Positions 14,816 through 63,659 of a DNA stretch of 64,000 bases are shown piece by piece. Position 1 is the stretch's first letter. Each line of letters opens with the position of its first letter. Below the pieces are notes generated by a model. The model was not told where the DNA came from, ran no database searches, and saw only the letters and a program-made list of their open reading frames with translations. The stretch is from Patiria pectinifera. Lineage: Eukaryota > Echinodermata > Asteroidea > Valvatida > Asterinidae. The position numbers were made by a program, and so were the translations under genes. The stretch is from the NCBI GenBank assembly GCA_029964075.1, contig CM057135.1, positions 1,721,001 to 1,785,000 of the forward strand, written 5' to 3'.

Positions 14816-14821
14816 TTTAAC

Positions 14822-15030: not shown

Positions 15031-15039
15031 GAGCTTCAA

Positions 15040-35993: not shown

Positions 35994-36213
35994 CTGAAAA
36001 GTTGTGAAAGAAGTGTCTGGTTGTTTTTCATCTTTTTTTTGCGCGGGGAAAGGGTAGGGGGGTGAGGTGGGGGACTATCATCAATGTGTAAGGTGTTTTG
36101 AGGTGCTCCAAAAGTAAATTAATGTTACAAGTCTTCATGATTACGCTTATATTTCATTATATGTACAGAAAGTGTTGGGTGTACAAATGTGTCCCCAAAA
36201 CTATATCCCAAAA

Positions 36214-36740
36214 GTATGGTGGCCCTGAGGGGACATCGCATATCGCAAACGTGTGCGCACACGTGTGCGATGTTGCGAAATTTATCGCGAATGTGTGCGC
36301 ACACGTATGCAATGTCGTGAAACAATTCGCGACTATGTGCGCACACGTATGCGATGTCGCGAAATTTATCGCGAATATGTGCGCACACGTATGCGATGTC
36401 GCGAAATTTATCGCGAATATGTGCGCACACGTATGCGATGTCGCGAAATGTATCGCGAATATGTGCGCACACGTATGCGATGTCGTGAAATTTATCGCGA
36501 ATATGTGCGCACACGTATGCGATGTCGTGAAATGTATCGCGAATATGTGCGCACACGTATGCGATGTCGTGAAATTTATCGCGAATATGTGCGCACACGT
36601 ATGCGATGTGAAATTTATCGTGAATATATGCGCACACGTATGCGATGTCGTGAAACAATTCGCGAATATGTGCGCACACGTATGCGAATTTGTTTGCAAT
36701 GTCGTGAATTTTTATTGCATACCTTTGTCGCATACCTTTG
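36214..36740 (+). repeat. Left terminal repeat with eleven 42-bp units
   Basis: After GTATGGTGGCCCTGAGGGGA comes ACATCGCATATCGCAAACG and 11 units of a 42-bp repeat built of GCGAATATGTGCGCACACGTA and TGCGATGTCGCGAAATTTATC. It contains the palindromes TGTGCGCACA and TCGCGA. The array ends GCGAATTTGTTTGCAATG and GCATACCTTT. 42 is a multiple of three and the unit has no stop in several frames, so long frames here (CAHVCDVAKFIANM repeated) are artefacts. Confidence 0.9.
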
Positions 36741-38193
36741 GGGTGATGTCATTTTTGCGGGCAATTTGTTAGTGACCTAGGGAGTCCGCAAGTGGCCCTG
36801 GTCCAATTTTGTATACCCAAGATACTTCAAGGCAGGAGCTTGGGTACCAGGCAGTTACATTTCAGCGTGGCCAAGGTCATCTCCAGCCGGCCAGCCACAG
36901 GGTGATGGTACAGCATCATATCACAAGACAAAGGTCCATGCGAACAATCGTCCGACTGTTCTCACGAAAATGAGCACCGGTACGATGGTTAGTATAATAG
37001 TTATTCACTTATTTTGAATTGTACACAATATATTGAAACTCTTATTCTTATTAAAGTTGAAGAAAGCCAGAACCTTTCTGAAAGTTTCTGCCCAATTTTC
37101 GGACAAAACAAACTTGGAGGATGGTAACGTTATGGCAATACTCATAGTTATAGTCGTTACCAGGTTACAGGATGGCCTTACGTTACTTACATAATTGTAA
37201 TTAAGTCTCAAACATGAGTCTTACATTATAGCTAATGAGGTTTAAAAAGCAACCTTTGCGCCAATGCGATTTGAGCAATTTCATCAATTTTTGTCGAAAG
37301 TAGTGTCCATATTCACCCAATTTTTTACACTTTCAGAAATCGAAACACCCATAATAAGGGCACAGAAACAGTCACCAAATGTTGGTAACCTAATCAATAC
37401 TATACCACTATAAACATGACTGAGTACATATTTGCCCCTCACCTGAGGCTGACGAATCAATGTCAAACCGTAACGTAACCAACATTGAACCTCGAAGTTG
37501 AGTCGTCATGGCCTTGTTTTTCACACTAGCGACACACTGGCCAATCAACATAAAGCAGTCATGAGCGATGACTGCCCGTGGTGCGCGGTCTCTGTACTTG
37601 ACTGTGCACATTGGAGACTTTCCCCAACATCTCATTCCCCACCATCTCATTGTCAAAAAGTCTATTGGCATTGTTAACAATTTGTGTGTTTTTTTTCTTC
37701 ATTTTATTCCAACAGATTTGTTGGGTACTCTTTGTTTTCCATGCTGTGTGGAAGGTGTCTTACCCAACTATACTCCAGCACTTGATGCTTTGATACCAAC
37801 ACAAGCAGAAGACTGTATCCTTGAATAATTAACAGTTAACAAAATACGTGTTAATGTTATTGACAAAACAAATTATTAATAGCTAAAATAAATTGTTTTT
37901 TTTAGTTCAAATAGTTTGTACATGTGAACAGACGATGATAACCTAAACAAACTTCTTGAAATTGTTCATCTATTTGTACTGTCTTGATGATCAATACCGA
38001 ATTTGTTTTGCATTATGGGTAGATTCTTGTATGTTGAAAATGAGCATGCTATGCATACGGTCTTTAGAAAAGGCACAGCAACAGTTATCCATATAGGTTA
38101 GACAAAAAGTTGAAATGTTCTTAGTTTTAATGTTTTTTTAATGAATTGAAAAGGATTTGTTTCCTTATCAAAATATGCTTGTCTAGTTCTTAG
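36741..38193. other. Region between left terminal repeat and first recognised integrase exon
   Basis: This should hold the promoter and any 5' exons of the integrase gene. A candidate exon follows ATTCCAACAG near 37710 (LLGTLCFPCCVEGVLPNY ... TQAEDCILE, stop at 37828), but no family match is evident. Nothing else is supported. Confidence 0.3.
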
Positions 38194-38637
38194 CTCATCA
38201 TGAGATACTTCATGGCTGGATATACTATCCCTGTCATTTGTGCCTTCTTATTTTACAAACGCGGCATCCGAAGAAGGTTGGTGGTTTAAATTTTAGTTCT
38301 GCCACAGAAAACCAAAAACATTTAATAAACAATTTAAAGGAACATTGGTTGAATTTTTGTGTACATCAATTAGTGCTTGTTAAAGCATTTCAACCACACG
38401 TTCTTTTTGCAAGGTATAATTTTATGAAAACACTATGCAATTTACATATTAATGTTGGTGCACATGGTATGTAATCTCTTTTTTTTCAGTGAGCGACACC
38501 TGAAGAGATTTCTCAAAAGAATGGGATTAAAGCGAAGGCGGCAAGAGTCAAACCTCACATGATATAATACATGCAATATTGGTGAGTTGACGTATGACCA
38601 CGTGCAGGAAAATTTAACCCTTTAAAATCCCTACATA

Positions 38638-39287
38638 CAGCGTGTCCCAAAAAAATGTCCCTCTGATACACTGCTTAATTAATTCCAAAATCAAGTATTA
38701 TTCTCAATTTAGTGTTCAGATTTAGAAAGCCCATTTAATTTTGTAACTTTTGTGAAAATTCCATTGGTCTCGGTTCATTGGTTTTGAATACACAGTCTAT
38801 TATGTAACAGCAGTGCTTTTCAGCCTATTCCAAGTTTGCAGGTGGAAGGACGTGCAGGGGGACAATAAAGGTTTACAAGCTGGACATTGAAGGACAAACC
38901 ATAAGTGGAACACACCCTGTGAAAGCAAACATGACCAGTGGAACTGAACTTTGATTAGTTTTCATTTAAAAAGTAAATGAACTTGACTTTAGTTACTCAA
39001 TAACAAAAACTACAACACAGTTGTTGAATTAAAAGTGAAGCATGGAATAAGGTATGTTATGTCTGTAGTGTGCATTTCTTTTTATCAAACTTGGAATGGG
39101 CCAGAATGCAATGCTGTTACATAAAAGCCTGTGTATTCAAAACCAATGAAGCGAGACCTTTGACATTTTAACAGGCACTACAAAATTAAGTGGGCTTTCT
39201 AAATATGTAAACTTAATTGAGTATAAAACTTGATTTTAGTAATTATTCTGTGGTCTACGACAGGGACATTTTTTTTGGGACACGCTG
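38638..39287. mobile_element. Mariner-like MITE with TA duplication, in integrase intron 2
   Basis: Begins CAGCGTGTCCCAAAAAAATG and ends CATTTTTTTTGGGACACGCTG, flanked by TA on both sides. Arms of about 200 bp pair through TTGGTTTTGAATACACAG and its complement. Termini of the GTGTCCCAAAA type with TA targets are typical of Tc1/mariner-derived MITEs. No transposase inside. Confidence 0.85.
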
Positions 39288-40588
39288 TATTATGTACACA
39301 CTCTCCTTTATTATACAGTTTGAGTAGTCACAGCATCCGTTTCAAAAAAAGGTGTGATGTTCCATTCGTAGGGATTTTGGAACTCACTTTCCCAGTTTAA
39401 TGTGTATGGAAAATCCACATACTTGTGTTAGCGCTCACCATTTTTTTCAAATATTGTGAGTTACATTTTAACTATAGACAGAATTGGATGGTACTGGTTC
39501 TTGTTGTAGGTACCGAGCTATGTGGCAGCACCTAATGAGAGATCATGGCCTACATGTGAAAAGGTTGGTTTGTTATAGTTATTAGTATCACCATGACATC
39601 ATATCTGGGACTCTTTTAATGAGGTTGTGAAACCAATGTACAATTGTGACTATATTACATTGTAAGATTATGCTTTATATCACTTTCAGTTTGCCAGATT
39701 TTTGTTCTCTTACAGAGCAATTAAGGGATGGGTGTGACTTTCACACTAGTTGTAGAGATGAAACTTATTGATTTTTTTTTTCTAACTTGATGTCAACCTT
39801 ATAATTGTTACTAAGATGTGGTTGCATTAGGGTCTATTGTATCAGTCCCAACCAGTAGTACACTTGCTCCGAATTACACAGGCATTTTTAAAAGTTCAAA
39901 AAATTATTGTTGTTAGCTGCAACCAGTGTTTAAAAATTGTCCCATTTGCGTAAGTCTTTCAGGCAGGAACAGTTTCAATGTACAGATTTAGTGCTTTTGT
40001 AGTTTAAGTAACACCGAGTGTTTTGGATTAACATTGATTATGTGTGATTGTTAAAGAAGCTGTGACATTAAGATTCTGTGTGTGTGTTTTATGTCCCCTG
40101 AATGACCCTTATGTTTACAAAATGTACCTTTTCCCACACAATAGTTCAATTTAATCCCGATGTTCTCACTGCAACTGTTTGTCAGCTATGAGTTTGCTTT
40201 ACTGTGGTATTAAACAAAATAAATTGACAATATAGTATGGCCGATAATTCAACAGTGATAACATGTCAGTGTTCTATGATTCTGTCTTCAGAGACACATT
40301 TAGGCAACTTCTACTGGAGTTAGACCCAGACGGTGTCACTGCTCGTAAACAGAGGCGATTGAGACGTCGCATGTACTACAATAAAGGTCCACACTACCTT
40401 GTTCATGTAGATGGCTACGACAAGTTGAAGCCGTACGGATTTGCCATTCATGGGGCCATTGATGGGTAAATACTGATACACCATCACACACAAGTCACAT
40501 TTATATCATGTTTTGCCTTTATGGATTTCACATCCAAAGTCATGTTTTCTTTGAGATTTTCCTCTGTATTTTTTCTGGATGGATGGTT

Positions 40589-40741
40589 ATGTTACATGTA
40601 CAGGGTGTTAGGAGATACATGTAGAACGATAAATCCTGAAGCAAAAGGTTAGTTTGATAAATGTGCTTTATGACTGTTTTCATGTGTTGCTCCTACTGTA
40701 TGACCTACATGTATTTCCTGGACACCCTGTACATGTAACAT
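40589..40741. mobile_element. Short foldback MITE in an integrase intron
   Basis: ATGTTACATGTACAGGGTGT at the left pairs with ACACCCTGTACATGTAACAT at the right, enclosing about 110 bp with a second inner pair (ATACATGTAG / CTACATGTAT). It lies downstream of the exon with the first catalytic Asp. Confidence 0.7.
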
Positions 40742-42599
40742 TCTTTCAAATAATGCTTTGTTGAAATTCTTTAACTCATGCTTCACTTAGCATAATGACC
40801 CTGTAAATGTTAAAACCAACTTTCGACATTTGAAAGTAAAACATTACAATCACATCCAACATGGCGAGAGGGAAATTTGACCTTTTAAAACATAAACAAT
40901 ATTTTTATCATAAGATCACATTCATTAAACCATTCCTTAAATTCTGCTCCACCAACTGCCACATGTCCCCCTCCCCATTCACTGGCAAGTCCACCATGGC
41001 AATGCATGTTAGCCAAAGCTTGTCTTGCCATTGCAGGATAAGCATTTAAGATTTCCACACCGATATGAATGTAGGCTCTCAAATCCTGAAGGTTATAAAG
41101 TGAATTGGTGAACATTGTGTTCTTTAAGATACTCCTACAAGAAAAAGGCACAAGGTGTCAATTGGCTTTTATCACACACCATACCTTTTTTTCAAACCAA
41201 TGGTGCTCAGTGAAGCACAAGTCAAACAATTATCAAAAATTCCACATTTTGTGGATTACATTCGACAAGTCAAAGGTAAGGGTTGACCTAAACACAGTTT
41301 ATGATTCACATGTTGTCATACCAAATACATTCACAGAGCAATTAATTAAAATACCCTCAGTTAGTTTTTGGTATTTTAAATTTTTTTTGTTTATTTATTC
41401 TTGTGGTTTTTTTTAAATGTTTACCTCTCGTGTATGTAAACTTATGACATTCTGCATACATTTAAGGTTTGATGCATGTGATCATTCTTACCATCTATAT
41501 TTCAGCGGTACCACACATAATCAGGACTGAGAACACTCTTATAGAAGACATTCAGATTGCCTTTCGCTACCATGACAATGATGACCATTCTGACTTCAAG
41601 AGCTTCATGTACGGCAAATCTACTTCAAATCAGGTAAATGTGAAAAGCAACTCATTTCAGTGAAACAAAAAAATCATTACTTAGTGTTTTTGATACTTGA
41701 AGATGCAGGATTAAAAGTTCATAGGGCAGTTGTTGCATTTTATCTAAGCCTAAGCATTTTGAATACTCGTAGAATAAGCCTTTTCACCATGATGTCTTGT
41801 AGCGCATTACAATTTTTTTAATTGTATTACTTTGTGATTGTGATAAATGTCATTAAATATGTAGTACGTTGATTTGATAACGCATTGTTAAGCAGTGCAT
41901 AATTTTAGTCACCAAGAATTATCGGTATTTATCATCAAGTAATATTTTTTTCTTATTGGTCGTCCAAAAGCCTGTTTGTGCCATCACTACTTTATTTTCG
42001 AGAGCATTTATTTGTATTTTCTCTATTCTCCAGAGAATTGAACGCTGGTGGGGCAGCATGAGGCAGGGAGCCATGAATTACTGGTTGAGTCTCTTCAAGG
42101 ACCTGGTTTATAGTGGAACCTTTGACAACTCCTGCCTCTGGGAAAAGTAAGATGAAATTGTCTTGTGTTATGCCAATGAGGAGGAGTGTTTTTATTATCT
42201 AATTTATTTTACATTGCAGTTATGTTTCTGGAGAATCATGCACAAGTCTGTGTACATGAAACATCACTGTATCGACTCATGAAATCACTTCACTGTATGA
42301 TAATACACTGTTTAAAAGGAGATGTGATATGGAAGCCCGACAAGAGATGAGATAGATGTCTAATACCATATGTTAATCTTTTTCATTTCCAGAGAATGTG
42401 TACGGTTCTGTTTCACAAAATTACTACGCAGAGAACTTCATCGAGTTGGCAGATTGTGGAATGAACACCACATCAGACATTGCAAAATGTCAGAAGGTCC
42501 TCATGGGAAGCCAGATATGATGTTTTTTTCTCCCACAACGTTATGGTATGTTTAATTTGCATTTTCAACTTGTTTAATTTCCTTTAAAATAAAGTATTG

Positions 42600-42910
42600 T
42601 GTAAGACTTGTTCCCCGAAGTCGAGGGTAGGACAGGGTGGTCATGTCGGCCTGGTCTGATGGCATTTCTCCATGCCTCCCGGTCCTGGGACGTTGTCTAT
42701 CCAGTGCTGTCTTGCGACCTTGTGGACGGACGCTCTCTACCTGTAGTTCTTGTTCATCACTCATGCGCTGGATGTGCCCATACCAGCGCAGTCTACCCCA
42801 TCTGACTTCTTCCTCAATCTTGACGATACGTAGACGTGCTCTTAGTTCATACAGGGGCACTCTATCAGAAATCTTGGCTGAGGAAATCAAATGCACCATT
42901 GCATTGTCAT
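42600..42910 (-). mobile_element. LINE ORF2 3'-end fragment in the last integrase intron
   Basis: The - strand reads RVPLYELRARLRIVKIEEEV, RWGRLRWYGHIQRMSDEQEL and VESVRPQGRKTALDR, the 'R-W-x-G-H-x-x-R-M' end common to many RTE/Ingi/L1-like ORF2 proteins. Nothing of the reverse transcriptase is present, so it is a 5'-truncated insertion or a captured fragment. Confidence 0.65.
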
Positions 42911-44902
42911 TTTGGGACAGTCGAGAGATATTCTCGCCAGTTACTGGCTATGTTTCACTGGCATAGAACTGTTTATTGTCAATTTAACTGTTTATTGTCA
43001 ATTTAATGTCAATAAATGCTGTATGTTATTAATTTCATAGGTGCCCGCGACTTCAGACATGAAGTTCAAGAAGATGACATTGATGCAATTGATGATGGCA
43101 TGTGTGTGTCTGTTGCCGAAAATGGATGCACTGCCGAATGTGAGGAAGTTGCTCAAACACTAATGACGGAGAATGGTTTGACCATGCCACAAGCACCTGC
43201 GGATGCCGTCACTCTTTTTGCGGAGTTAAAAGAACTCGTAACCGACAGAATATAAATTGCCACCATTGCAATTGTACCTGAACAGAAATGTGTTTTGTTC
43301 CTATTTACCAAGTCCTCAATTGTGTCTGGAAATTGTGTTATTGATTGTAATGAATGTGTTCTTCTTATTGCTTTTTTTTGGGTGGATTTTACTTTAGATT
43401 AGCCTGGGTGCAAGGCCATATATAGCTTGCTAATCCCTCGCAACTTGTCATAGCCCAATTTTAGGCTACACCCTGAAAGACTGAAAAATGTAATTAAAAT
43501 TTGTACATATTTGTATGGTAATGAGAAAGTTACAAGATTTCAGTTGAACCACGGAGAGGGAAAATCTGCCTGTGTGACAGGTTAAAAAATTATACATGAA
43601 GTTTTGTCAGGATCTCAAAAAACTATTTCATGTAAGTGGGGTTATGTAATGATAGGAATAGTTTTGATGTTTATGTAAAAATAGTTGATGTTTTTAAAAT
43701 TTAATAACTCATAATAGTAAAAAAAAAAAATGACATTTAGACCTTCCCAGCAAACAATTTGACGTTTTCTGAACGTTTCCTGAACGTGCCTCTTTCGTTT
43801 AGAGAACGTTTCGAATAAACGTTTTAAGAACGGCCATTTGTGGACACTTTTGGACGTTTTAAAAACGTTTTTTGAGACGTTCTAAGAACGTTCTTTGAAC
43901 GTACAAAAGGAGTTAACAACTTGCTAGTAATTATCTAGGACCTAACAATGACCTACATAAAACGTTCTGGACGTTCACACAACCAATTGACGTGCCATAA
44001 ACGTTCTAAGGACGTTTGTTGAACGAACAAAACGTATTAAAAACGTATTACTAGTGACTAAAGACGTAACAAGGACCTACATAAAACGTTTGGACGTTCA
44101 AACAACCAACTGACGTGCCATAAACGTTCGTTGAACGTTCGTTGAACGTACAAAACGTATTAAAAACGTACTACTAGTGACTAAAGACGTAACAAGGACC
44201 TACATAAAACGTTTTGGACGTTCAAACAACCAACCGACACTAGATGATTCTGTGTTTTATCAACTTTATTGTTGGTCCGGAACTTCAAATTACAGAACTC
44301 GAGGTTTCATGGATTTATATCCGTACCTGTAGATATTAGAAATTAAAATCAATTTTTTTTTTAAAGTTGTTAATGCGATTTATTACAAAAAGATATTGTG
44401 CCGGAATATGTGCTGAATGAAAACGTCTGCGTGAAATTTTTGCTCGATGGCGTTCTGGACAAAAGAAAATGTACAGGACTGTTTTTCTTTTTGCTAAATG
44501 ATTTGTAACATCGATGTTTTTGCTACCTGACTGATGGCTTCACACTTTTAATCATAAAACCTAGAAGAAAATCTAATTTGCATAAAAATACATTACACCA
44601 AAATACATGTACCCTTGAAAATAGCAACTACAAGAAAAGTTGGAAATAAGGTTAAATTTGATACACCTGTTTATGCATAAATACCAGAGAAACATTTTAC
44701 TAATTCAAATTCGTCGCTCGAGTGCTCGTCACGTTGTCGGTTTTAAACAACTGATTAAGACCTGTGGCTGGTGTCCGACAAACATAGAGTAAAATAGCTG
44801 GGAAAAACATTGAAATTGTTATAATATTTGACTTATTTTGACTTTTGGACCGAATTAGTTTTATTTTTTTATGAATGGCAATAAGTATGTGCTTTGCCAG
44901 TA

Positions 44903-45279
44903 TTAGGCCAAAACAAAAAAGTCTCCGGTTTCTGGTATGCGCGCGCGTCGCCGTAGCCATGCGCGTCGGCAAAATGAAAACGTTTTTTTTTCAATGAAAG
45001 ATGATGTCTCAAAACCGCCAAACTCACTGGTTTGACTAGAATTCTGCTGCTGCGCAATTTCAACGTGTTTTTAGATGGGGTTATAATCGAGAATAAGCTT
45101 TATGTGGCCTCTCTGGACTCCCATATATTTGCACAAAGTTTAGTCGGGCACCATTTGCAGTCACCAGCCGACATTTGAAGCAAAAAAGTCGGGTAAAAAA
45201 AAAAAAAAAAGCCGCGTCGCCGCACCACTATTTGGACAAGCTCCATACCAGAAACCGGAGACTTTTTTTTTGGGCCTTA
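44903..45279. mobile_element. MITE with TCTCCGGTTTCTGGTATG ends
   Basis: TAGGCCAAAACAAAAAAGTC at the left pairs with GACTTTTTTTTTGGGCCTTA at the right, and both arms include CTCCGGTTTCTGGTATG. The arms are about 36 bp. It is nested in the 5.1-kb AACGTTTT element. Confidence 0.75.
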
Positions 45280-45346
45280 TCCAGACTCCAACTGGTCTTT
45301 ATCTTAAACATAGTGTTTAAAACTGGCAAAGCAAACATATGTTTTC

Positions 45347-46202
45347 TTAACTAAATCTGTTAATATGAAAGTCTTCACTGGTCATCTGATCTTCATCTTC
45401 CTGAATATCCTCAGATTGAGCTGCTGCATCACTTCCAGGTTTCTACAGTGCAAACGAATCAAATAAATAACAAAAAATATATCAATTAAAGAAAAACAGT
45501 TTGAGGAGTGGGCCTATTTGAGGGATTCCTTCTGCAAATCACTCAAAGGAACAAGATCACAATACAGACCCCTACGGGCTAAGTTCATAGTACAATATTT
45601 ACAAAGGCAATTCCTACATGTTCACTTATACTTAAATCATACTGCCAAGTTGCTGATCTAGTCATTAAAATGTTGATTGTCGATTGAATTTCACTTGGGT
45701 TTGGCAAGCACAAACTGATGCCCGCAGTATGTGAAGGTTCTCAGCGCAAACAAAAATTGGCAGCTCATGTCATATAAAAACAAGTCATGAATTCTATTAG
45801 CATCTAAGTGGAAATTGTGTACCCGTCACAACTCACAAATGTGTGAAGAAGGGTAAACAATTCCCATAATCCCCACAAAGTTATAAACATTGAAATGTTA
45901 TGTATTGGCAAGTTGATAATTCTTTGTAACATGCAAAAAAAAAAGCACACTTGCGTATACGTCATTTTCGTGTTAGTTTGTAACTCATTCCTTATGTAGA
46001 TTCTTCTACAGCGCATCGATCATGGAAGAACAGAGAAAAACATTTAAACAGTAACCAGGATATTTAGCTTATGTGTGTAAAAAACGTCAAATTTGCAGAA
46101 ATGAACTTACTTTGTAATTCATCTACCTGGAAGGTCTGGAGACTGTTTTCCCCAGTAGCAATTCTTGATTTCGGCCTTCTTGGTATATTAGAGTGATTTC
46201 CT
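45347..46202 (-). pseudogene. Two weak exon candidates inside the 5.1-kb element
   Basis: On the - strand, exon 46202-46127 (AG...GT bounded) reads GNHSNIPRRPKSRIATGENS and ends LQTFQ. Exon 45442-45347 (after CACTGTAG) reads KPGSDAAAQSEDIQEDEDQM and ends at TAA 45347-45349. A third candidate near 47285-47250 reads RITEDLEDEKGW. Basic then acidic composition suggests a nuclear protein tail. No domain recognised, and exon phases do not join cleanly. Confidence 0.25.
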
Positions 46203-48844
46203 CTTGGGGGAAAATTAAAAGAATAAAATGGCAAATGAACCAGTTAATTGAGCAGTTAATTGTCGGTAAATAGATATTCTCTGCTCCATTTTAATGCTGT
46301 GTTGATGCCTTAGTAGAAAATAGTGTAAATTATTCAGTATTTTCTACTTCGACTTTTGGCTGGAGGACAACTTTGTGAAGTTTATTCAAGGTTTCATCTT
46401 GTGGCAATATTTAGAGGTCCGAACTGGTTACCACATTTCCAACCTTTTTTTAGTTTTACATGTTTTAGCCGAATTGGTTCAATGGAGGGGAAAAGAACTG
46501 AAGAACCTATTTTGTGAAGCACACAAAATTACTGTAGTGCACCTTTAACTTCAACTTTCAGCACACACAGCCTTAATGACCATTACCAGTAGGCAGGGTC
46601 ACAAGTTCACCAGTTCAAGTTGCCCCTTGCGAGCAATAAATCGTAATTGAGATTATGTTCCAAGATGTCAAAAACACAACCTGACAAACTCTACACATCC
46701 TTCGTTTTTAATCCTCCCAAAAAGTCTAATTCACGGGCGCGGTTTGATTGATCGAGGCAAAACTCCGCCAAAGTTTCACAAAATAGGCTTAGTCATGTCG
46801 GTTGTAGAAGCGGCATACTGGACCGAATCGGGTGATCTTAAATGTCTTTTTCATTTAATTCCCCACGATTGGTATAACAAGAAATGCAAAGGAAAATACA
46901 TGGAGCCAAAACAATAACAGATGTCGAAAGTCCGGAGATAATTATGGACGAAGCGTATACGTGGCTACATCAGCATGGCTAAACCTATACATGTAACAAC
47001 TTTTACGAGTGTGTGTACATTGTATACCGTTGCTACTATTTGTGTGGAAAAAAAAATGCAATGATCGATCAAGTCGACTTGTCCCCAAATTAACTTGTTG
47101 TCGGCAAAATACAGCAGCACACTTTTGCATAAACATGATGAACAAATTCAAACCAATCTCCAAACTTGTCAAATCAGCTGACATGGCTGATTCATTCTGC
47201 AACATATCTAAATTTGGTTTTAAATGAAAGATTATCTACTCACCAACCTTTTTCATCCTCCAAGTCCTCCGTTATTCTTTCTAGCAGAGTAGAACGACAC
47301 CATCATGACCATGGAAATTGTGATCATGGTGATGTAGGCAACATTTATAAATGCATTAACGTCCATAAAATTCCATCATAAGTGTTTGCCAGAAGAGCAA
47401 TTAAGTCTTGAAAGTTTCCATAGGCATGCACTTAACAGCCAACATTCATGTTTTGAGAAATACTGCCTTAAACTTCTTGTACAAGTACAACATTACCAGC
47501 AACCCATTCCTAGATCTGTTCCTTGCTCTGTGGTTCAACTGACCGTGAATTCAAATCTGCCACACAGGGAGATTCAGGTATTGACTGGTATGCAAGGTTG
47601 TGTGTACTGTGCGTTGGGTGAGACTGGGTTACCAGTGGAAGACAGTGGTTGTAACCTGTCCTTGCACAGCAGGCGGTCACTATACTCTGTGTGGGACTGG
47701 GCCTGTTATAATTGGATTCTGTGTAGCCGGCTGTTATTATTCTAACTCCTTGTGTTTTTTTTTTATTGCCTAGCTACTGCAGTACTGCATTGTAATGGTG
47801 ACTGCAGTACTGCATTGTACTGGTGAACAAAAGTTTGCTGGAAGTTGGAACAGAATAGTTCGAGATGACCACTGGCATGACTGGCAGGATGACTAGTGTA
47901 TGGCCAGAGCAGAGTGTGTCGTTGTGTTTACGACTAGACTTTGAAACAGAACGACCGCAACCTGAGCGCACCTTGGCCAACCAGAGTGCCAAGACGTTTA
48001 TGAGTCATTGTCTATGACGCTTCGATCGGCTAGAATCTTGCGGGATCTTGCCCAAAGCGTACTGAATTATTTTTAAATCATACCGGCATGAAATTTCATT
48101 TCTCGGTTTGCACACAACAATACAAAAACATACAAATACAGAAAATTGACGATAAAAAACAGACAATATTAAAACATTCAATAAAATATAATTAATCAAA
48201 TAATTGCTTAAAACACAGAAAACCTTAACAACACACACAGTGGATGCCGGGTAATTGTCCGTATATATCTGCTAGTAGTTGAAAATGTGTAAATGTATTC
48301 AACATTGCACAAAAATGTAAGATTCCACATCAATTCAAATGGATGGGTCTATTTGTTTCATTTATTTACGTTTGAATGTGAGGTTTTTTAAACGTTTGGG
48401 AAATTGCGTTTTCCAAACGTCACAAAAGACATTTTAATGTAGGGCCATTTTCTAACGTCCAACAAACGTTTTTTAAACGTCGCAAAAGATCGTCTCAATT
48501 GGGTAAATTTTCTAGCGTTCGCAAAACATTTTTAGAACGTTTTTGAAAAAAACTCGGAATTGTACATTATCTACGTTTTAAGCACGTTTTAAAACGTTCT
48601 TTTGGACGAAGACGTGGTGGGGTTGTTTAGTTTATTTACGTTTGAATGTAAGGTTTTTTAAACGTTTGGGAAATTACGTTTTCCAAACGTTAGAAAAGAC
48701 ATTTTAATGTAGGTTCATTTTCTAACGTCCAACAAACGTTTTTTAAACGTCCCAAAAGATCGTTTCACGTGGGTAAATTTTCTAGCGTAAGTGACCTACG
48801 TAGAACCTACCAAAACGTTTTTTAAACGTTCTGTGTTTGCTGGG

Positions 48845-50415: not shown

Positions 50416-50880
50416 CTACTGCTTGTGGTTCTGTGGTTCCTGATGGTCACAAATAGAGAAGCCTTCTCGAGTAGACCAGTGTATCCCTTATCCAGCATCC
50501 ATAATATTTGGGTACGTGTATAAAACATTATTGCTTGAAATGTGCCTAAGAAATTGGAGATTTGGAGATTTAGAGATTTGGAGATAAATGTGTTGTAAAA
50601 TTATTGCATAGCAAGTGCTTATGGAGATTATTTCTCCTTGATTAAATTTTTATGCCTTTTAATATTTTTATGCCTCTCGTAAGAAATGTACTTGTAAATT
50701 CGCAGCAAAAACATTTCTATGGAACAAATCTCATGATAAGAGATAACCAAGGATAAGGAGAGATGGTTATTTCAAATAATTAAATAATTGAATATTGGAT
50801 TCATAGTCATTGTATATTTGTAAATAAATTAATTTCTATTCTTCTGTTTTCTGTTATTACAGACTGCTGAAGAATGACTG
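50416..50880 (+). other. Possible small spliced transcript
   Basis: Exon 50416-50511 lies between ATTACAG and GTACGTG. A further exon starts at 50863 after TTATTACAG. Joined in phase they end in a TGA at about 50875. The upstream part reads LLLVVLWFLMVTNREAFSSR, a hydrophobic signal-like stretch, but the only ATG lies after most of it. A donor at 49816 may supply a 5' exon. It could be a small membrane peptide or a noncoding RNA of the 27-kb element. Confidence 0.25.
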
Positions 50881-52101
50881 TCGTTTTTTGTTGTAGTAAT
50901 ACAATTTTGATCAATTAAGTGGAATTATACTCCCTGTGTCACTTTCAAATTTTCTGCGTAACCTTTCCAGCTCGGTTACACTAAAATTGGGTAACTCCAG
51001 TCAAAATGCGAAGTTAACTTTTAGACTCACAACAATACCATCCTTCAATTAAGACCTAAAATCATGGACGAAATTGTTGGGACAGTGTTTACCGCACACC
51101 CGTAGCGCCGTTTCAATGTTGTCAAGATGCGACAAACGCTCGCACCGTGAAATTCCTTGGTTTGCTGATTGACATCAAAGTGGTCAACATTGAATTGTGG
51201 GTACGAGGATATCCCCAAAAAAATTTGTCCTGGATTCTTTAAAGGCAAGTACTTGTCAAGACGGCAGCCTGATGATACCATAAGAACCAAGGTGAAACAT
51301 AATTCACTATTACATCTTTATTAAGTTTACATACATGTCCTTAATAAACTTTATTCATGAACACTTTTTTATTACTAGATTAATAAAAGCTACATAAAAG
51401 TGCACAAAACAAAAGAATGAACAGAGGACGGATGGACGGCACTACCTGTGAGAAATATATTTTAAAATATAAGTAAAAAACCAAGTAACACTTCTATCAC
51501 AAGTAACACTTCTATCAACAAACACTGTTACTGTACAGTGTAAACTGTTCCATCTAATATGCTTTTTTTAATAACGGCATGTAAAAAACCTATAAAAGCA
51601 CCATACTTAATGAAAAAAAAAACACAAAAAAAACAAAAAAGCGAGTGGGGTGGGGGAGGGAGGAGTCCCCTCTCTCCCCAGTACCCTTACCCCTTTGCCT
51701 CGTCCCAAAAGAAATTGAAACCAAATACAAATTGGTGGTTCCATGGTACAAATCCCCCAAAATTGTTTGCCCTTGTAGACCCCCTCCCGGGTAATGGAAA
51801 TGTCCACTTACGTCAACAAAACATAACCTTATGTTCACTTGATTAAAAAGGTTCTGCTTGCAACATGTTTTTATAAGTGTACCTTGATCAAAAGGGAGCC
51901 AATTAAAGGTGATGTGTACCACCTGTAATAAACGTTTAGTCTGACTACGAGTGGACAACTCATTCATTAATAACAGATTAGTAAATAAAAGTTTAATACA
52001 AATAATAACCCTACACTGTGACAATAAAAACAAAGCACCTTCAGATTTGGCAAGCTTATAGCATGGTAGTAATTACCAACAGCGGGGATTTTTCTATGTG
52101 C
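50881..52101. other. Spacer downstream of the HECT gene
   Basis: No assigned feature. The frame at 51290-51045 (-) has no known motif. A purine-rich run (about 51600-51665) and low-complexity tracts are present. The HECT gene ends at 52102. Confidence 0.4.
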
Positions 52102-55100
52102 TTACACTTTGCCAAATCCCTTGCTGCACAGGATGGCCACACACATTACCTTTTGGAATGCACAGTATGACACAAAGTGCACAGGAAGGGTCAGTGTGAG
52201 TGAGCAGGTTGACACAACTGGGAAACATCTACACCTTTGGTTTGCTAATGGTGTAGTGTGTACATAACAGTCATGTGTGAACTTCACTCTTGGTTTTGAT
52301 GGCAATCCCAGTGGTGGGTAGTTTGGAGATCCAGTGATGAGGTATAAGAGGTCGCCCATTCCAACATCTCTTCCTTTACAAGTGATGGTTCCTTGTTAGA
52401 GAGAAGAATGGATACAACATACAGAAATTAGGACTAAAACCTAATAAAGGATGTACCTTATTCAATGAAGAAGTGATGATGAATAGCATCCGTACACAGC
52501 TTAGACCTGCTTTAATGTCCTACAAGCCTTATTTTCTATAATATGTGCACTGTAAAAAAAATTGCGTAATTTAACAGTTGTTTTTCTGTTGAAATTTCTG
52601 TAAATTTACAGTAGATGTTACTGTTTTCGGATTTTTCTGTAAATCTACAAATTTGTTACTGCCTACGTACAGTTTTCTCCATTTCGCTGTTTGGTAACGG
52701 TATATTCGCTGTTAAACTAAAATTTTGTGGACGCACAAGGAACATCATGTTTTGAACAAGCCCTCGTTCTGACTCTGTTAGAACACAGTCACATCGCTGT
52801 CGGTCAACAGAGAATCATCTTTTTTTGTACAGGGTTCGGCCGTATCGCGTGATTTTTCACTGGTAGGCGGTAGTAGTGCAGCGTTACTGTGGCATAAACG
52901 CTGAAGGGTACCAGTATGTTGTCAAGGAAGGCGCGCGCGGGAGTCGGACTATACAGTCCCATACAACTTCCCGTTGCGTCCATGCGTATGCATACGGTAG
53001 CATCTTGGAGCAAATTTACCTATCCGTTTCTGCTTGCATGTTTGTATTTTGTATTGTAAATGACTATTACTCTCAAGGAGAAGCGCTATAGAGAAGCAGT
53101 TTCAGTTTGTAAGCCTGATTGTCAACGACAACACATTTGAAAGTTGCTTGGTTGTCATTGCAGCATGACTCGCCGTAAGCCAACGTGCAAGTATCTACAT
53201 TCGCACCTTCATGGGTTTTATCGATAGCACCGCAATTACATGACGTGTAACAAGTATCTGCATGTGACGTACGTTCATTATACGAGAATATCTGTGTACT
53301 GAGGCTCACACAGTACCTGTCATTCGCAATCCTCGATACAAACATGAACACTTTGTCGTTTATCGGCCCCCATCAAATAATCACCGTTTAAACAAAAACA
53401 ACATTTTGTTCAGCAACAGAGAGTTGTTAAGGAACAAAAAAACAGCGAATGTGCTGTTAGGTTACAAAACGACAACACTTAATCATCTGTTACAAAACAG
53501 TAGAATCCTCTGTAAATGAACAATATCAAATAAAGTAGAATCTGCTGTTAATGTACAGAGAAAAAATAAACAGTAGAATATACTGTGCAAAAACAGTAAC
53601 TCCTGTAATGCCAATTGACAATAGAATCAACTGTTATTGAACAGACATTTTTTTAACAGTGTGTGAATATCGAAGTTAAAGTTTGTACTCTGTACGCAGA
53701 GCCACCATGCAGGCTTGTGTGGGTAATTCCTTGTTGAGCGACGTGTGCAAATATTTTAATTTGTTATTACTTTTATTATTATTTCGTGTTATCACAGCAA
53801 ACACACAAAAAATCTTATTCTCCTTTATGCCGGTAAATCCTCAAGTTAAGCTACGTCCCGTAGCCTTCAATCTCGAGAGTCTTTCGCAGGATCTTCGCCG
53901 TTAATATTGTTAGATATTTCAGCTTCTTAATTGTACGTACAATCAAAATGAATCTCAGTGTTCATTTCATTCCTTTTACTTCCTTTTAATTCCTGAAGTT
54001 GTACTTCGTTTTCTTAGCGTGTTCTAAGTCATGTACTGTCTTTGTTTTTACTGTAACTGTCCAGTTGTTGTGATTATCAACGGTTGTGGCAATTAACACT
54101 TTGTCTAATTTCTTTGGTGTGTACACTATGGTGACAGGGCATAAACTCAGTGCTTCATTTTTTTTTATAAAGGCTCCTCTTTTCTTTTAAAAGAATAAAG
54201 GAAAATTATATAAAATCTGTAACTACAAACGATGTTTTTAGCTCACAAGTACCTTCATCTGAAAAGTTCTCTACGAACTGGATAAAGTAGGCATACACAT
54301 CAACCTCAAGTTTGTGTCGATTGCCACCTTCAACAGAGTACTCTGGTTCATCCATGTCATCAATGAAATCATCAGGGGTTGGCATGAACACGTTTCCACT
54401 GCACATCAAAGATCTCCCAGCTTCATAGTTAGACTTGAAGAAGTCTAAGATACCATATAGTTTAAGACCGTCCATAAACTGCTGTAGCTCGGCATTGACC
54501 TTTAAAACAAGGTCATGTACAGCCAACTCTACCACAATATCATGGCGGTTTCTCAGTGAGTATCTGACCTTGGGAGTCACCCCACATGTGACTAGCATAT
54601 CCATCATCTCCTCGCTCTTTAGTAGGGAGTCTACGGTAGGATCATCTACTGATCTCATGATCTGTGGGTGTGTAAACAGTAAGCAATTTAAATCTAAAAA
54701 TTTTTAGTTAGCGTTTAAAAAGGAGAACTATGATCAAGCAAGCACATTTTGCTAGAAGGGTTGCAGAAATTCAATGTATTGATGTTTTTATGTTGCCCTT
54801 ATAATTCAGTTGGAAAAAAAAGGTTGTGCATTCCTTATTTCAAAATGATTCTGTTTTCTTTAACAATAAAAGTCTTCAGGAAAGCCTACATAGGGCACTT
54901 GTTGACATGACTGGATTCTCAATGTGACATAATCATTACATAAGGTATCCATGAGCTGTTCAAGAGAACAATTTGTCTGAGACTGGGTCTGCTGCTAGTT
55001 GAGAATCCAGCCATATTAGCAACTGACCTAATTATGTAAGTGTTCCTGAAGACTTTTATTTTTACACAGGAATGCATAACATCATGATTTATTTCAAACT

Positions 55101-58100
55101 GAATTATTGTATAAACATTTTAAGGGGTAACATAAAAAAAACATCAATACGTTGTATTTCAGCAAGCCTTTAATTCGCACAGCCCAACATTTGAACAAAT
55201 GAAATAAACATGTGACATGGCTTTGAGAGAAATGTCTTTTAGTGCAAAATTAAAGACAAGTCTTAATGATTTTGATACGCCATTACACTTTTTAACAAAA
55301 AGTGTTTCTATGGATGGGAGTAAAAGAGTAGTGACTGTTAACAATCAGGTGATTTCCTGTGTGTTTGAATTGGTGTAAACAAACAACAATGATATGCAAT
55401 GTTAAACAGTGCAATGTTTAGGAATAGATCACTAGAAAAATTTAAATTGTATTTAACTTTAGATTTTTGTTCCCCCTCTTACAATGTTACCATGGTGTAA
55501 CAAAACAATTATTACACACTGTAATGGAGTCTACTGGTTTTGCACATCCTGGGGAGCAGATATGTCACCCTGAACTTCGCCTTATGTACCATGAACCCCC
55601 TCGGGTGTATAAAACACCATGAACCCCATCATCATATGCAACAATGGGATACTTTGTATTGGTCTTTTTTCATGGTTCTTACCACTAGTACACATGCTCA
55701 AAACTACACATGCAGTACTGAGCATGTGTGCATACACTCGGAACTGTCAAAAGGACTGTTCTGTCTGCAGCCGTAAGCATCTCTAAAGTCTCCCAGCGTG
55801 TAACAACTAGCTTATGTGATACATTCCAACACATTCCTTAAAGAGGATCAAAATTATGACAAATAAGTAATGTAAAATTATTACCAGGTCTGCTTTGTCC
55901 TTGATGGCTGTGTCCATGATATCAGCAAGAGATGGCTCCAAAGTATGAATACTCTGACGGACCATGTAATCATACTGGACATGGGAAATGCAACTCGGGC
56001 TCCTGCCGCCATGAACGAGAGACGTCGCAAGCACTTGGCCAGCAATTCTAAACTCTTCCTTCAGAAGGGCACCGGTGTTATGTGTGATGGCCTTGCACTG
56101 ATCTCCTGTTAACATGGAACTACTCGAAAAAATATAACGCAAAATCTCTGAGAAAAATTCTCTGAGTGGCCCTCCTTGATCGACGGCTGGCTCGCCCAGG
56201 AAGGTCACTTTGAGTGGCTTACTTGGATCGAAGCTCCCCTTCTTAAAGACTCGGAGAGTGTCCTGCCATATGGCATTGCGGCGAATCCTGAGATGTGTGC
56301 ATGGTGCTTCAGCCTCTTCAGTTATGTGTTCCATTTTCAATATTTGCAGGTGTGTTTTGATTTGTTGCATGACCTGTTTTGCTTCATGTGGCCTGAAATG
56401 ATAAAGAGAAATTTGTGGATGTCATACAGTGCATTTGACATGTCCTGTCATTCTTTGAGGCAAAATGAAATTATATGTCCTTGAGCCCATTTCTGGACTT
56501 GGTTTTCTTTAATTAATGAAGTTCCCATTGGTTTTGTACTCTACCGAGAACTGACCATGGTAGTAATGTTTCACGGATCTTTTTTGTTAAGTTCTCAGAT
56601 TGAATGGCTAGACATGCTGATGGACAAGGCATACATATCTAGATCAATCATTCAGACCACATGTATACAAATGCTTCACACAGATTGATGACAACTATTT
56701 TAATATGAGACCTTGTTCACTTTGTTGTTGAGTAAAGTGATCAGTGTTTATTTTTAATAAAGTTACTTGTGTTTTATTGCATTATAATCTGTGTTTTACC
56801 TTGTCATGCATTGCTTCTTTGAAGACCTAGACGTCTCTGCTTCCACTAATCGCACTTCTGGAAGATCTTCATCACTGTCATCTATGACAATTAGTTCTGA
56901 GTAGATGCTTCAAAGAAATGGTACGCTTAAATATTAGTATCCCATTAATTTTTAGGAGCTTACAAGGTATATCACCTTCACAGTGCATGAAATTAAATCC
57001 AAATGAAACAAATAGATTCCAAGTATTAAAAAATAACACTGAATTTCAATCATTAACATTTGCATTGTGAGGGAACAGTAAGCAAAGTTTTGCAGTAACA
57101 CCACAAAGAAACACTCTTTCGGGTTGTAAAAGAACCATTCCAATCATTAGGCGCTAGTTGTCCTCAAGAGGATTGTACATGTATTATCAAAATATGGAAA
57201 TGCATCACAGCTCATCACTTACTCTTTTGGATCTCTGGCTGGAGTCGATGACGCAACTGGGACAGGAATTGTGTCACACTCAATTTCTGGTGTGGGACCT
57301 TTTGAAGAGTGTGACTTGGTTGACACGATGCCGGAGTCATCAAGACGTCGTCTTCTTGTCACATCCTAATTGTTAAAGGAAAAGACAGTGGCAACAGAGA
57401 TTTTTCTGCAGGATAGTGTTAATTTCAACAGCCACACTCCAAAAATACATTACAATTATTTAAACTTTTTTTGGTTATACTCTAATCACAGTTGTGGTGA
57501 CTGGCAAAACTTTCCAAACTTGTTTTCAGACACCTTAATTTAGATTGTTTGTGCCCTGTTCAAATCACAGTGCTTATTAATTAAGAGACGATTCCTTTTT
57601 CTTCAAAATGAGACAGCATAATTTCAACAATCAATTGCTTTGGGGTTGAGCAAATTTGTTGTGCATCAAAGCAGTTATTTGGTGTATACTCCAAACATTA
57701 CAAGGCTACAAGACATGGAAACCATTTTAATGTTGCTGTTTTTTTTCTTTTTGTGGGGGGGGGGGGGTGTTTTGAAGCAATCCACTAAGTTGTGCTTTGC
57801 ATCAAGCTGAGTGTCAGTGCATTCATTATAAAGGCACTTGTTTTTTGTCGTGTTTTTCTTTGAACTTCATTCTTTATTGCATGATGACATTTGTTTGCTT
57901 CAGTAGATGTCACCCTTTGTTGACTTAGCTGAACAGCTGGAAACCCTTCATTACCTAAATCAGTCACAAGTAACTTGTGGTAAATTTTTCGTAAATGAAT
58001 TGCAACCTGGTTACATGAGAGGCCGTAAGCCTGCTTGGGGTTTCCTTTTTGCACAACATAGTGGGGTTTGTGTTTTGAGCTCCTTTGCATAAAGAGTGAA

Positions 58101-61100
58101 TTGGACAATGTCATAGCTGAATTAAAAAATCATTATCATTATTTTTTTTCAAAGAAGGCTGACAAATAGTGGTTGTAAGAATCTACCGTTCAACAAATAT
58201 TTGTTACACATGTCACTCCCAAATATGTGTAATGAATGAGCATGCACCATCTGCTGAAGACTTACGAGAGACACTAATGACAAAACACTTACCAATTTCG
58301 GATCAACAAAATCGTCATCTGAATCACTGTCCTGAAAGAAATATGAGATATATATTATGAGATAAAAATACCGAGGGCCATTTCTGTCATCATCCAAAAG
58401 TGCAAAGGATTAAAAGTACAACCTCCATGAACATTTTGAAGAACGATGTGATATTATTCAGTTATTTTTTATATGACAATGCATAAACTTGTGTCAGCAC
58501 AAGTTTGTATCAACTGATAATGAGCAAAGCCTGCAGAAATGTGGAAGTGACTTCCAAAAAATAGTTTCAGAGATTGTTGTTTGTAACTGTTGGCAAAGTG
58601 ACAATGTGGATAACAAAGTTTCAATGTGGATAACAAATTGACAATGTGGATAACAAATTGACAATGTGGATAACATGTGTTGTTTGATTTCAAAGAAAAA
58701 TCTTATACTCACTGGAGGACTGATGATGTCCTTTGTCAGCAGATAAATCCTCTTCTTTTGTGTTTTACAATATTCACAATAGGTGCCCACTGTGAACTAA
58801 CATGGCCCATCCGGTAGAGTCAAGGTTGACTTTATGGGGTCTCCCACATAGTTAGCTAGAGATCGGTCAAGTTGATGTAGCCTTTGTTTACCGTTTTTCC
58901 CATCTGGAAAAAAAACTCCTTCAATTCTGCGCACACACTCCTCATAGTTGAGTTCAGGTTCCATGTACACATTTGTTGTCCCCCACCCTTTATGGAGTAT
59001 ACCTGTTTGTATAGCTTTTTGGAATTACAGAAATGCTTCCATCCAGCGCTTAAGCATAATTTGCTTGACTGCTGAAAATAATTAACACACAAAAGTCATA
59101 CATTAAAACCGGTTGTACAATTGTACATGTGTCCTGAATAGGAATTTTGACAAAGCATCTTGTTAATCTTCTGAAGTTTTATTGGAACAGGCTGTCATTA
59201 TCACAGTTTGTATTATGAGCCATGTACAAATGATACAAATATGATCACAAAAATTCAACAAGGTTATGAAACCTTCCTTGAAGAAACAGTAGTGCTTGCG
59301 CCACACCAAGCATCAAGTTGATACATACGTTGACTGTTGAACGGTCAAGGATTAGTATTTTAAAGAAGTAAAAAAGAAAAATCCCCATCAAGAACCATTG
59401 ATAGGAGAAAAGGGAAAAAATGCAATCTGTACAAATAATATTAAAAATGTGGCAACTTTTAAGGGTTGGCCTCTTTCTGTGTATAGATTTGAAGATAGTG
59501 TGCACTAAATTAACAATGTTGACTATAGTGCTGACAACTGTGTGCCTACTGTCTTTCAATCAAAGGATGCACATAAAATTACTATTTATCTTCAACGAAA
59601 GTAAGTACAATTTTGTTGTACATTGTATTTCTTTTTTGACCTGCTGAACTGGGCTACATATACTTACACCGCTACGCGAACAACTCGCTCCTTCGTTGTT
59701 CTTGGAAGACCTTTTCTTTTTATTGTCTCCAATATGCTGTATATATGCAGTTAAAAAAATACAAGATGGACAAATAATACTTAAGATAAGATCAAAGCAA
59801 AATGTGTTTGGTCCGGTGTCATTGGGTTTTTTGTCCCCAGGTGCAGTATATTAATACGAGCTGGAAGAAGTCTAGCCAAAAGGCTATAACAAATTAAACA
59901 ATGTTAATCAAGTATCGCAAAAAGAAATCATTGGGAACACAAAAGAAAAAGTTGTTTAAAACTTTCTCAAACAAATATTAAATGACAGAGTTCATTGGCA
60001 ATGTATTTTTTTAAATTTTAAGAGTTAAGCTAAAATTGAAAAGAACAAACATTGAATTTTAAAACATATACGCAGATAAACAATGACCATTGAAAACACA
60101 ACTACAGACAAAAAGTGTAGTGAAGGTCAAAAGTTATTACCGACTATCTTCTTGCATCTGTTCTTCAACTGATACCGTTGGCCGATTAGAGAGACCCCTA
60201 GCTGTATGAGATGTTCTTCTGACATTTCTGGCACTACCTCTGTTGTTACCTGAAATACAAGCACAAACAGAAATGGGAAAAGTTAAACAGAATAAAAAAG
60301 TACAGTGTAAATGGAATGTTTAATATCCAATTGAGAATATTTTGGATTTATCTGAATGGATAATAACTCAACAGAACTAGGAACAATCCGCTTAAAATAG
60401 AGCACAAGATGGAAGTTTATAATTCAATAAATATTTGTCTCTGTGGTGTAACAACATGGGTGATTTTACAGTTCTTTTTATAACCATGTTGAATATTAAG
60501 CAATTAGCAAACGCTACTATGGGGATTTATGTAATGTATGGTTGTGAAATGGTCCTTTTCTTTGGCAACTGGACCTGCATGGTTGGGCTGTCATAATGCA
60601 TAGTCCCATTTTGTCACTTGCACTGACCAGTATAAGTCTAATCTAAGTGGTTAATTTACAGGTTACAATTAACATATCCCCGTTTGGTTCACCCTTTCAT
60701 GAATTACTTTTATAAATTAAAGTACTACTTACGCAGCTGTTTATGGAATGTTTGATACACTATAAAACCTTGGTGCAGAGACTGGGGCATTAGTCACAAT
60801 GTTATTGCTCCCCTCTGCTCATTATTTGAAAATTTATCATTGGAAGCACCCCCGATGTTGTGTCTTATGATGTAATTTTTAATTTAAATTTCACCCCCCA
60901 CCCCACCCCTTTTTAGCGTTAATTGAAATCCATAGGTAATATGTTGGGCTTTATTATTCCCCCATGCTACCGTGCTACACCCAAGGCATTGGTCATTACC
61001 TGTTGTTCTTCAAATGCTTTGATGCATGCTTGTAATCCCATGTCTTGGAGGATATCTCTTATCTAAAGAAGGAGAAAAATAAAATAAACAGTTGTTTCCC

Positions 61101-61742: not shown

Positions 61743-63114
61743 CTGTCAATCACGCGTGCAGGACGCACGCCGCAGGCCTAGTGGTAGTCCGGTTTTCAGA
61801 CCAAAAGATTCTGACTATTCCTAGGATCAGGAATCAAAACTCAGGAAGTTGGAGCCGAAGCCGAAGATGGAGCCGCAGCCGAGAATTGAGAAACCCCCTT
61901 GTACTAAAACGGTTGCATGGGAAGTACAAACGCGGCGTTCATCACGTGATTGTGGCGCCCGATGCGTTATCACAATACAAGCACAAGACGGACCCTCATA
62001 TCAGTCAACTTACGGATAACGGCCCAAATACCTTATATTAGAATGTTTTTAAATCTCAGATTTCGTTCACGAAAATGTATTGAAAATTGTATTGAAATGG
62101 ATCTGAATATTAGTACTAAAGCAAAGCTTCTCATCTAAGGAAAACATTAAATGATAAAAACATTTTGAAATGTCCACATCCAATAGATAACTGAATCACG
62201 AAATAGGATGTGAAAGTGTTGAAAACATAGATTCCAAAGGAAAGGGGAAATAAATGAAACACATAAAAAGACAGTCGTTGAATCAATTAATAATAAATAT
62301 TAAATTTTCGGGGCTTAACAGGTTCTTTGCACTATGTACATGAGTCCCACAGAACTGACACTCTAAAACCACTGATCCAGATCATCCAAGTTTTATGTCT
62401 TGAGGAATAGGAATGTGAAGCATGTGAACAGAAAAAAAAACATTTATATAAGATAACATACATATGTTATGTAATAAAACAGTGAACTAACATTGGTTTG
62501 GTTTGTGGCTCGTTTAAGTTGAAAAAAAAACTTTGTGCAAGCCATTGTTTAGAAACAACAAAGAAACTGTTTTTAATGGCACTACGCTGCCAGTACATAG
62601 GGTCAGTATTTGTACCATTTGTATCCAGCTGATCTCCTGAAAATCTCAAAAATTCAACTATTGATTTAACAGACGTTAGATTAGACAGACTTTTGGTTAA
62701 ACAGAATGTCAAGGTCGCATTTTAAGGTTTTTTATTGTCATCACATAAGCATTAAAAGTGTCTCAACTACATAAGAGCATTAGGCAAACATGTAAACATA
62801 CATGCAAGTAATTTTATCTAGGCGGTATTATTAGCAGTTCGCAGCAGTTCATATATCATTAATAGAACGTGCAGTTCATGTACAAATTGATCGCAACACC
62901 TGCAAATCACGGCAATTTAAATTTGCGTGCGCATATTTATTGGCTGAAATATGACACCACGTGAGTTTCAAACTTGCGCGCGCAAATTTCAAAGTTGCGC
63001 AAGTAGCAAGTTTGCGCTCGACAGGTTTATTAGTCAGACCCTATTTATATCTAACAGTACGTCTAGATTCCAGACTAGCTGCTACAACTCCCCCGTTCAT
63101 TTGGAATTTTACTG
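61743..63114. other. Upstream region of the HECT gene
   Basis: No secure exon. An AG acceptor-like TTTTCAG near 62640 precedes an open - strand frame (GDQLDTNGTNTDPMYWQRSA) that could be a 5' exon. Near 62900-63050 lie GCGCGCGCAAATTTC-type CpG clusters and an ATTGGCTG box facing the gene, a possible promoter next to the right terminal repeat. Confidence 0.3.
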
Positions 63115-63473
63115 AAAGGTATGCGACAAGATATGCAATAAAATTCACGACATTGCAAACAAATTCGCATACGTGTGCGCACATATTCGCGATAAATGTT
63201 GCGTCATCGCATACGTGTGCGCACATATTCGCGATAAATTTTGCGACATCGCATACGTGTGCGCACATATTCGCGATAAATTTAGCAACATCGCATACGT
63301 GTGCGCACATATTCGCGAATTGTTTCACGACATTGCATACGTGTGCGCACACATTCGCGATAAACTTCGCGACATCGCATACGTATGCGCACACATTCGC
63401 GATAAACTTCGCGACATCGCATACGTATGCGCACACGTTTGCGATATGCGATGTCCCTTTAGGGCCACCATAC
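63115..63473 (-). repeat. Right terminal repeat with seven 42-bp units
   Basis: Inverted copy of 36214-36740 with seven units, the same outer sequence (GGGACATCGCATATCGCAAACG on the reverse strand) and the same inner boundary (GCATACCTTT). Some units vary (for example GATAAATGTTGCGTCATCG). Sequence similarity to the left repeat stops exactly at the inner boundary. Confidence 0.9.
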
Positions 63474-63659
63474 AAATGGGTTTCACAGTAACAACGTTGA
63501 CCGATTTCGAATACTATAACTCAGAGGGCATATTATACGGAGAACTGTGTGCTTTCCATAACTCACCTGAAGTAAAGTCATACGATTGAAAACAAACATA
63601 TTTGAAGTTGAACAGGAATCAATGTCAATGAGCAATTCCACGGTCACTCACGTTACATT

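Follow-up and report, generated by a model that had tools for sequence, protein, structure and literature searches.

The question raised by a 64-kb stretch of animal DNA, probably from a starfish (38% G+C; C7:1721001-1785000 of the 613.5-Mb assembly G000; hereafter the window) is whether an integrase gene and a HECT ubiquitin ligase gene that face each other between inverted repeats belong to one mobile element, and what such an element would do with a ligase. A sequence-only reading had described inverted copies of one complex terminal sequence about 27.3 kb apart, and comparison of the two ends revealed exactly this: an inverted match of 316 nt at 90% identity (36207-36522 with 63165-63480, the matched arms 26.6 kb apart) and, at both ends, tandem arrays with a 42-bp period, mutually inverted, with 10.7 copies on the left and 6.7 on the right. 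The terminal repeats measure 525 bp (left) and 358 bp (right). Their outer edges (TATGGTGGCCCT) line up, as do their inner edges (36739 and 63115), which marks the two repeats as the left and right ends of a single design. When duplication lengths of 2 to 12 were compared, 6 gave the best fit; the flanking hexamers match at 5/6 positions, a level equalled by 0.7% of random hexamer pairs from the window. The stretch between them is a DNA transposon of 27,258 bp with TATGG..CCATA ends. The coordinates first proposed for it (36214-63473) captured the element itself, with borders one base too wide on each side.

Both genes read inward from these ends, as the sequence-only reading had it; their exon borders were predicted from GT/AG sites. 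The joined pieces of the first gene, which runs from the left end on the + strand, matched PF24764 at 4.6e-16, with one piece (41245-41277) a stub that is weak on its own. Its nearest relative, P0001 from an NCBI contig, was 95% identical in the alignment and 83% identical over 85% of the query in the search, and among named relatives the best, at 61% identity over 99% of the query, belonged to the starfish Asterias amurensis. P0001 carries the D, D, E motifs, and its predicted structure (predicted local distance difference test score, pLDDT, 90) gave PFV integrase, IstA and the TnsABCD transpososome as best PDB matches, with template-modelling scores of 0.3-0.5. Compared with P0001, the window integrase is missing the greater part of one exon, along with four residues that include the second catalytic Asp; a 39.7-kb sister copy described below contains 229 bp at the stub that are absent from the window copy. 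The second gene runs on the - strand and encodes, from the right end inward, a SAM domain (PF07647, 1.7e-10 on the joined pieces), a middle domain, the motif LIVIDDSDED and a HECT domain with its Cys (PF00632, 7.8e-6; 26.2 bits against a cut-off of 23.9). The above-threshold PF00632 match and the conserved Cys identify the product as a predicted HECT E3 ligase. The SUMO-interaction-like motif that had been reported in it is present as LIVIDDSDED. No 5' exon was found upstream of the SAM piece, and the piece at 58713-59071 is disrupted twice, by a frameshift and by a TAG in the reading frame. A search with the whole-length HECT protein gave no match at 0.001, and a search with the N-lobe gave two. 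The predicted structure of the HECT relative P0121 reached a pLDDT of 33 and did not confirm the HECT fold. Both window genes are therefore broken, a point that the earlier reading did not contain; an active element is ruled out, and judged by its sequence the window copy is dead.

Further copies were located by searching G000 with the left end of the window element. At least 79 matches were obtained, many of them standing as inverted pairs; the best 40 of 233 candidates were scored, so copy counts are lower bounds. Twenty stretches were read, representing 16 places besides the window: two large copies, six of 4.6-6.9 kb, seven small ones and one single end. The same ends enclose three large elements (27.3, 39.7 and 19.1 kb), and integrase and SAM-HECT genes are convergent in all three. 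The sister at C7:21065560-21105293 (39,734 bp) is flanked by a perfect 6-bp duplication, CTTTTC; its HECT gene has four stops and its integrase gene a frameshift. In the other, at C14:36067288-36086420 (19,133 bp), the HECT pieces that could be aligned, all but a 13-residue exon, have open frames, and the integrase has lost its middle exons. These copies bear out the grouping of both genes in one element. All six mid-sized copies retain the last four P0001 integrase exons and none of them gave a HECT match; one and the same internal-deletion structure fits the four for which a comparison was made, three against the window and the fourth against a sister. The seven small stretches (about 0.6-1 kb) lack integrase and HECT alike, but they are not the isolated 0.4-0.5 kb repeats that would have spoken against an element: in six, a script detected the pair of inverted ends with a 6/6 duplication, and the seventh (L026) has variant ends. 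A single end was seen at 1 of 17 places, the window included (L028, 5.9 kb read). Among the 14 copies with both ends read, all found by the TATGG..CCATA pattern, the duplication was perfect (6/6) in 12, 5/6 in the window and 3/6 in the 19.1-kb copy; this count does not take in one stretch with an end uncovered, L026 or L028.

In its ends and duplication length, the window element matches the IS3EU superfamily of cut-and-paste DNA transposons. IS3EU is marked by TA..TA ends, usually 6-bp duplications and an integrase-type DDE transposase (PMC10045372), and together with GingerRoot it is among the closest known systems (PMC10045372, PMC12730594). All 14 measured copies end in TATGG..CCATA, and three further integrase elements of the genome, described below, begin with TACGG (on C21 and C3) or TACGA (16 kb, on C7). 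The duplications are 6 bp long and perfect in the proportion given above, and the transposase is integrase-like (PF24764), with D, D, E in P0001 and without the second D in the window copy. Fungal IS3EU families that carry TET genes are described as having TAYGG..CCRTA ends and terminal inverted repeats (TIRs) over 30 bp (PMC12730594), a length that both window repeats exceed.

The same arrangement recurs in other integrase families. A search of G000 with P0001 gave at least 133 matches, many from divergent families, with the best 129 of 235 candidates scored, and the surroundings were read at five loci, a non-random choice guided by closeness, open reading frames or copy number. By eye, the integrase matches seem concentrated on contig C7 among those listed. 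At C7:3.11-3.13 Mb, an integrase with D, D, E motifs, 64% identical (161/252; one piece running into an intron omitted), faces a HECT gene 40% identical to that of the window (164/409); element ends were looked for there and none were found. The element at C21:3059109-3066588 (7,480 bp) has 30/30 terminal bases inverted, a 5/6 duplication (GATTTT/CATTTT), 21-bp arrays, and an integrase with a convergent frame of 698 amino acids that contains a HECT domain (PF00632, 3.1e-7); a second copy of its end lies 1 kb upstream. The element at C7:2812714-2828807 (16,094 bp) has TACGAAAG ends, a 6/6 duplication (GAAAAC), 31-bp arrays, and an integrase with convergent HECT pieces (PF00632, 8e-10), two of which are 33-35% identical to the window HECT. 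The element at C3:6108026-6124264 (16,239 bp), with 29/30 terminal bases, a 6/6 duplication (GGATCG) and 31-bp arrays, pairs its integrase with a convergent gene in which a RING exon (PF13920, 1.2e-12) accompanies a GWxH..GGGT domain; from strand and order we infer that the two form one gene. A convergent E3 gene was thus present in five of the six integrase families examined, that of the window included, and in four of them the ends enclosing it were read. The catalytic-type Cys occurs in 5/5 aligned C-lobes (four G000 families and P0121), and a GWxH..GGGT..FF..G N-terminal domain in 4/4 aligned ligases, of HECT and RING types. Taken together, the ligases in several related elements suggest that these elements may make use of the host protein-tagging system.

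Two further features of these families were observed. The subterminal arrays (L036/L038, L034/L041/L042, L035/L039/L040) are built from units of other kinds, 21 and 31 bp long and in part palindromic, at the position of the 42-bp arrays. The 16-kb element on C7 contains an acidic stretch, IEILDSDIDEEDQSLAAAIEASL (L035, C7:2824337-2824489, - strand), which we take to resemble a SUMO-interaction motif with a ubiquitin-interacting motif after it, although a regular expression gave no match. As the SUMO-motif expression, tried on two pieces, matches the window but not this stretch, conservation of the motif is not claimed.

The joint explanation that fits best, to which we give a probability of roughly 0.85, is a degenerate transposon of the IS3EU kind with the ligase as a standing second gene acting in trans. 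An intact integrase from elsewhere would bind the repeated terminal units and move any DNA bearing both ends, and the targets of the trans-acting ligase would be proteins of the host or of transposition. It may be recruited, in part through the SUMO-interaction-like motif, to silencing complexes bearing SUMO on transposon chromatin, and ubiquitinate these for removal, allowing the element to be expressed. Removal of SUMO-marked silencing proteins is the most likely role for the ligase, though we hold it tentatively. A rival role is that the ligase targets the element's own integrase or transpososome, for turnover, disassembly or dosage control. The ligase is encoded beside the integrase, and protein-unfolding machinery clears away some transposases; the SUMO-interaction-like motif, though short, points instead to SUMO-marked partners, and we regard this role as rather unlikely. 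That two unrelated terminal-repeat copies lie by coincidence on either side of two host genes, one integrase-like and the other HECT, is extremely improbable: the ends often occur as small copies, but three large elements hold both genes, which contradicts a host HECT gene beside unrelated repeats, and the 39.7-kb copy has its perfect duplication.

Several observations weigh against a functional second gene, and some of them favor a ligase that was picked up and copied along as a passenger of no use to the element. The ratio of nonsynonymous to synonymous differences (pN/pS) of HECT between the three large copies was 1.51, 0.95 and 1.18, so constraint on HECT is not visible among these near-identical copies; for the integrase it was 0.84, 0.36 (p 0.055) and 0.81. 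The derivatives of 4.6-6.9 kb spread despite lacking HECT, so the ligase is not required in cis, and at C7:23.27 Mb an integrase was found with no ligase within 24 kb (element ends were looked for there as well, and none were found). HECT is broken in two and the integrase in all three of the large copies, and the duplication of the 19.1-kb copy is poor. The HECT pieces at C7:3.11 Mb are free of stops, but the largest exon lies in shifting frames and looks broken. The C21 HECT was missed by tblastn with the window HECT at E 0.01 and rests on Pfam and alignment, and the Pfam SAM domain of the window gene is found neither in the C21 frame nor in the exon of the 16-kb C7 element. In the other direction, substitutions were fewer in HECT exons than introns in two comparisons that share the window copy, with uncorrected p-values (37/2085 versus 148/5418, 1.8 versus 2.7%, p 0.016; 32/2085 versus 133/5708, 1.5 versus 2.3%, p 0.033); no difference was seen for the integrase (p 0.22 and 0.86). 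A useless passenger is nevertheless improbable, since the convergent layout recurs with HECT genes as diverged as those at C7:3.11 Mb and in the 16-kb C7 element, and again in the C21 element and with the RING gene of C3, which has the N-terminal domain in common, and the catalytic-type Cys is kept. A broader proposal, which is possible but short of an even chance, is that animal IS3EU elements as a rule carry an E3 facing the transposase, its class (HECT or RING) exchangeable behind a shared N-terminal targeting domain, and use ubiquitination against SUMO-marked silencing. Recurrence of a transposon-borne ligase across unlike families of one genome, and in two classes, would allow transposon silencing through ubiquitin and SUMO to be tested directly; among the multi-copy "HECT genes" annotated in animals, some might then belong to transposons and not to the host.

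Coordinates of the window element, its genes and its inserts (window positions)
Feature	Position	Strand	Basis or detail
DNA transposon, TATGG..CCATA ends	36215..63472	none	end and duplication comparison
Left target-site duplication, CAAAAG	36209..36214
Right target-site duplication, CAAATG	63473..63478		5/6 alike
Left terminal inverted repeat	36215..36739	+	includes 42-bp array 36241-36687
Right terminal inverted repeat	63115..63472	-	includes 42-bp array 63165-63446
Integrase (PF24764) gene, broken	37730..43255	+	profile match, comparison with P0001
Integrase exon pieces	37730-37822, 38490-38558, 39481-39563, 40292-40465, 41245-41277, 41506-41633, 42034-42146, 42393-42545, 43041-43255	+
SAM-HECT ubiquitin ligase gene, broken	52105..61062	-	profile matches on joined exon pieces
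SAM-HECT exon pieces	61000-61062, 60141-60249, 59670-59736, 58713-59071, 58293-58331, 57223-57365, 56800-56896, 55885-56392, 54253-54661, 52105-52395	-
Exon with SUMO-interaction-like motif	56800..56896	-	LIVIDDSDED
HECT C-lobe exon with conserved catalytic-type Cys	52105..52395	-	STCSLTLTLP
Insert in integrase gene	38638..39287		193-bp inverted arms; missing from both other large copies
Insert, 5.1 kb	43746..48844		missing from both other large copies
Insert	49324..50980		missing from both other large copies
Insert	52548..53646		missing from both other large copies

Inserts of 0.65, 5.1, 1.66 and 1.1 kb in the window copy are absent from both sisters, and by subtraction the ancestral element was probably nearer 18-19 kb. 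The 5.1-kb insert contains 123-bp tandem repeats (43877-44238). Elsewhere in the window, positions 32863-35222 hold a young element in which no long reading frame was seen, with perfect 271-bp inverted ends (TGTTACAACTG..CAGTTGTAACA), a 5-bp duplication identified by eye (CGTGT) and repeated CCGATAATGTATCA units; by its ends we presume it to be Ginger-like. At 14214-16687 (- strand) a frame without a Pfam match looks by eye like a type-B DNA polymerase, and beside it lies an A32-like ATPase frame (22.4 bits, slightly below the cut-off), a region resembling the remains of a Polinton/Maverick-like element. A reverse-transcriptase fragment was noted at 18851-19219 (+ strand; PF00078, 1.3e-5, below the cut-off), and a hairpin repeat with nested inverted arms at 63671-63996, directly beyond the right end of the transposon.

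Among known systems, RAG1, of Transib/ProtoRAG origin, also joins a DNA transposase with E3 (RING) activity; there the RING lies within the transposase protein, and the transposase is unrelated to the IS3EU-like integrase. Ginger1 and Ginger2 elements have TGT..ACA ends. Like the window element they use an integrase-related transposase, but their duplications are 4 or 4-5 bp (PMC10045372), which rules out membership for an element with 6 bp. Duplications of 6 bp are shared with Polinton/Maverick elements (PMC10045372); no type-B DNA polymerase matched among the element frames scanned, which took in just some of the frames. Searches beyond animals confirmed no integrase relative in IMG/VR, where the terminal pattern had no exact match either, and gave one match in GTDB genomes, on a sponge-symbiont bin contig whose 3.8 kb showed no match to a ligase. 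Helitrons and Helentrons with VTD or OTU deubiquitinases (PMC9741609) likewise encode ubiquitin-system enzymes of more than one class; unlike the window element, they are rolling-circle transposons, and their enzyme removes ubiquitin and sits within the Helitron frame. No paper joining IS3EU with HECT or placing an E3 ligase opposite a transposase was found in a literature represented mostly by titles and abstract openings, and the stems transpos and mobile did not occur in the part seen of a 2010 survey of animal HECT genes (PMC2837046). The closest parallel is in the fungal TET-bearing IS3EU families, in which an alpha-kinase gene lies opposite the transposase with TET/JBP between them, the TET/JBP dioxygenase being thought to counter methylation-based silencing (PMC12730594). 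No TET or kinase was present among the window frames scanned; the second gene of the window element is an E3 ubiquitin ligase instead, and its TIRs hold long arrays of repeated units. As the fungal alpha-kinase opposite the transposase makes a second gene in that orientation a known layout, what appears new here, going by the papers found, is the E3 ligase in that place.

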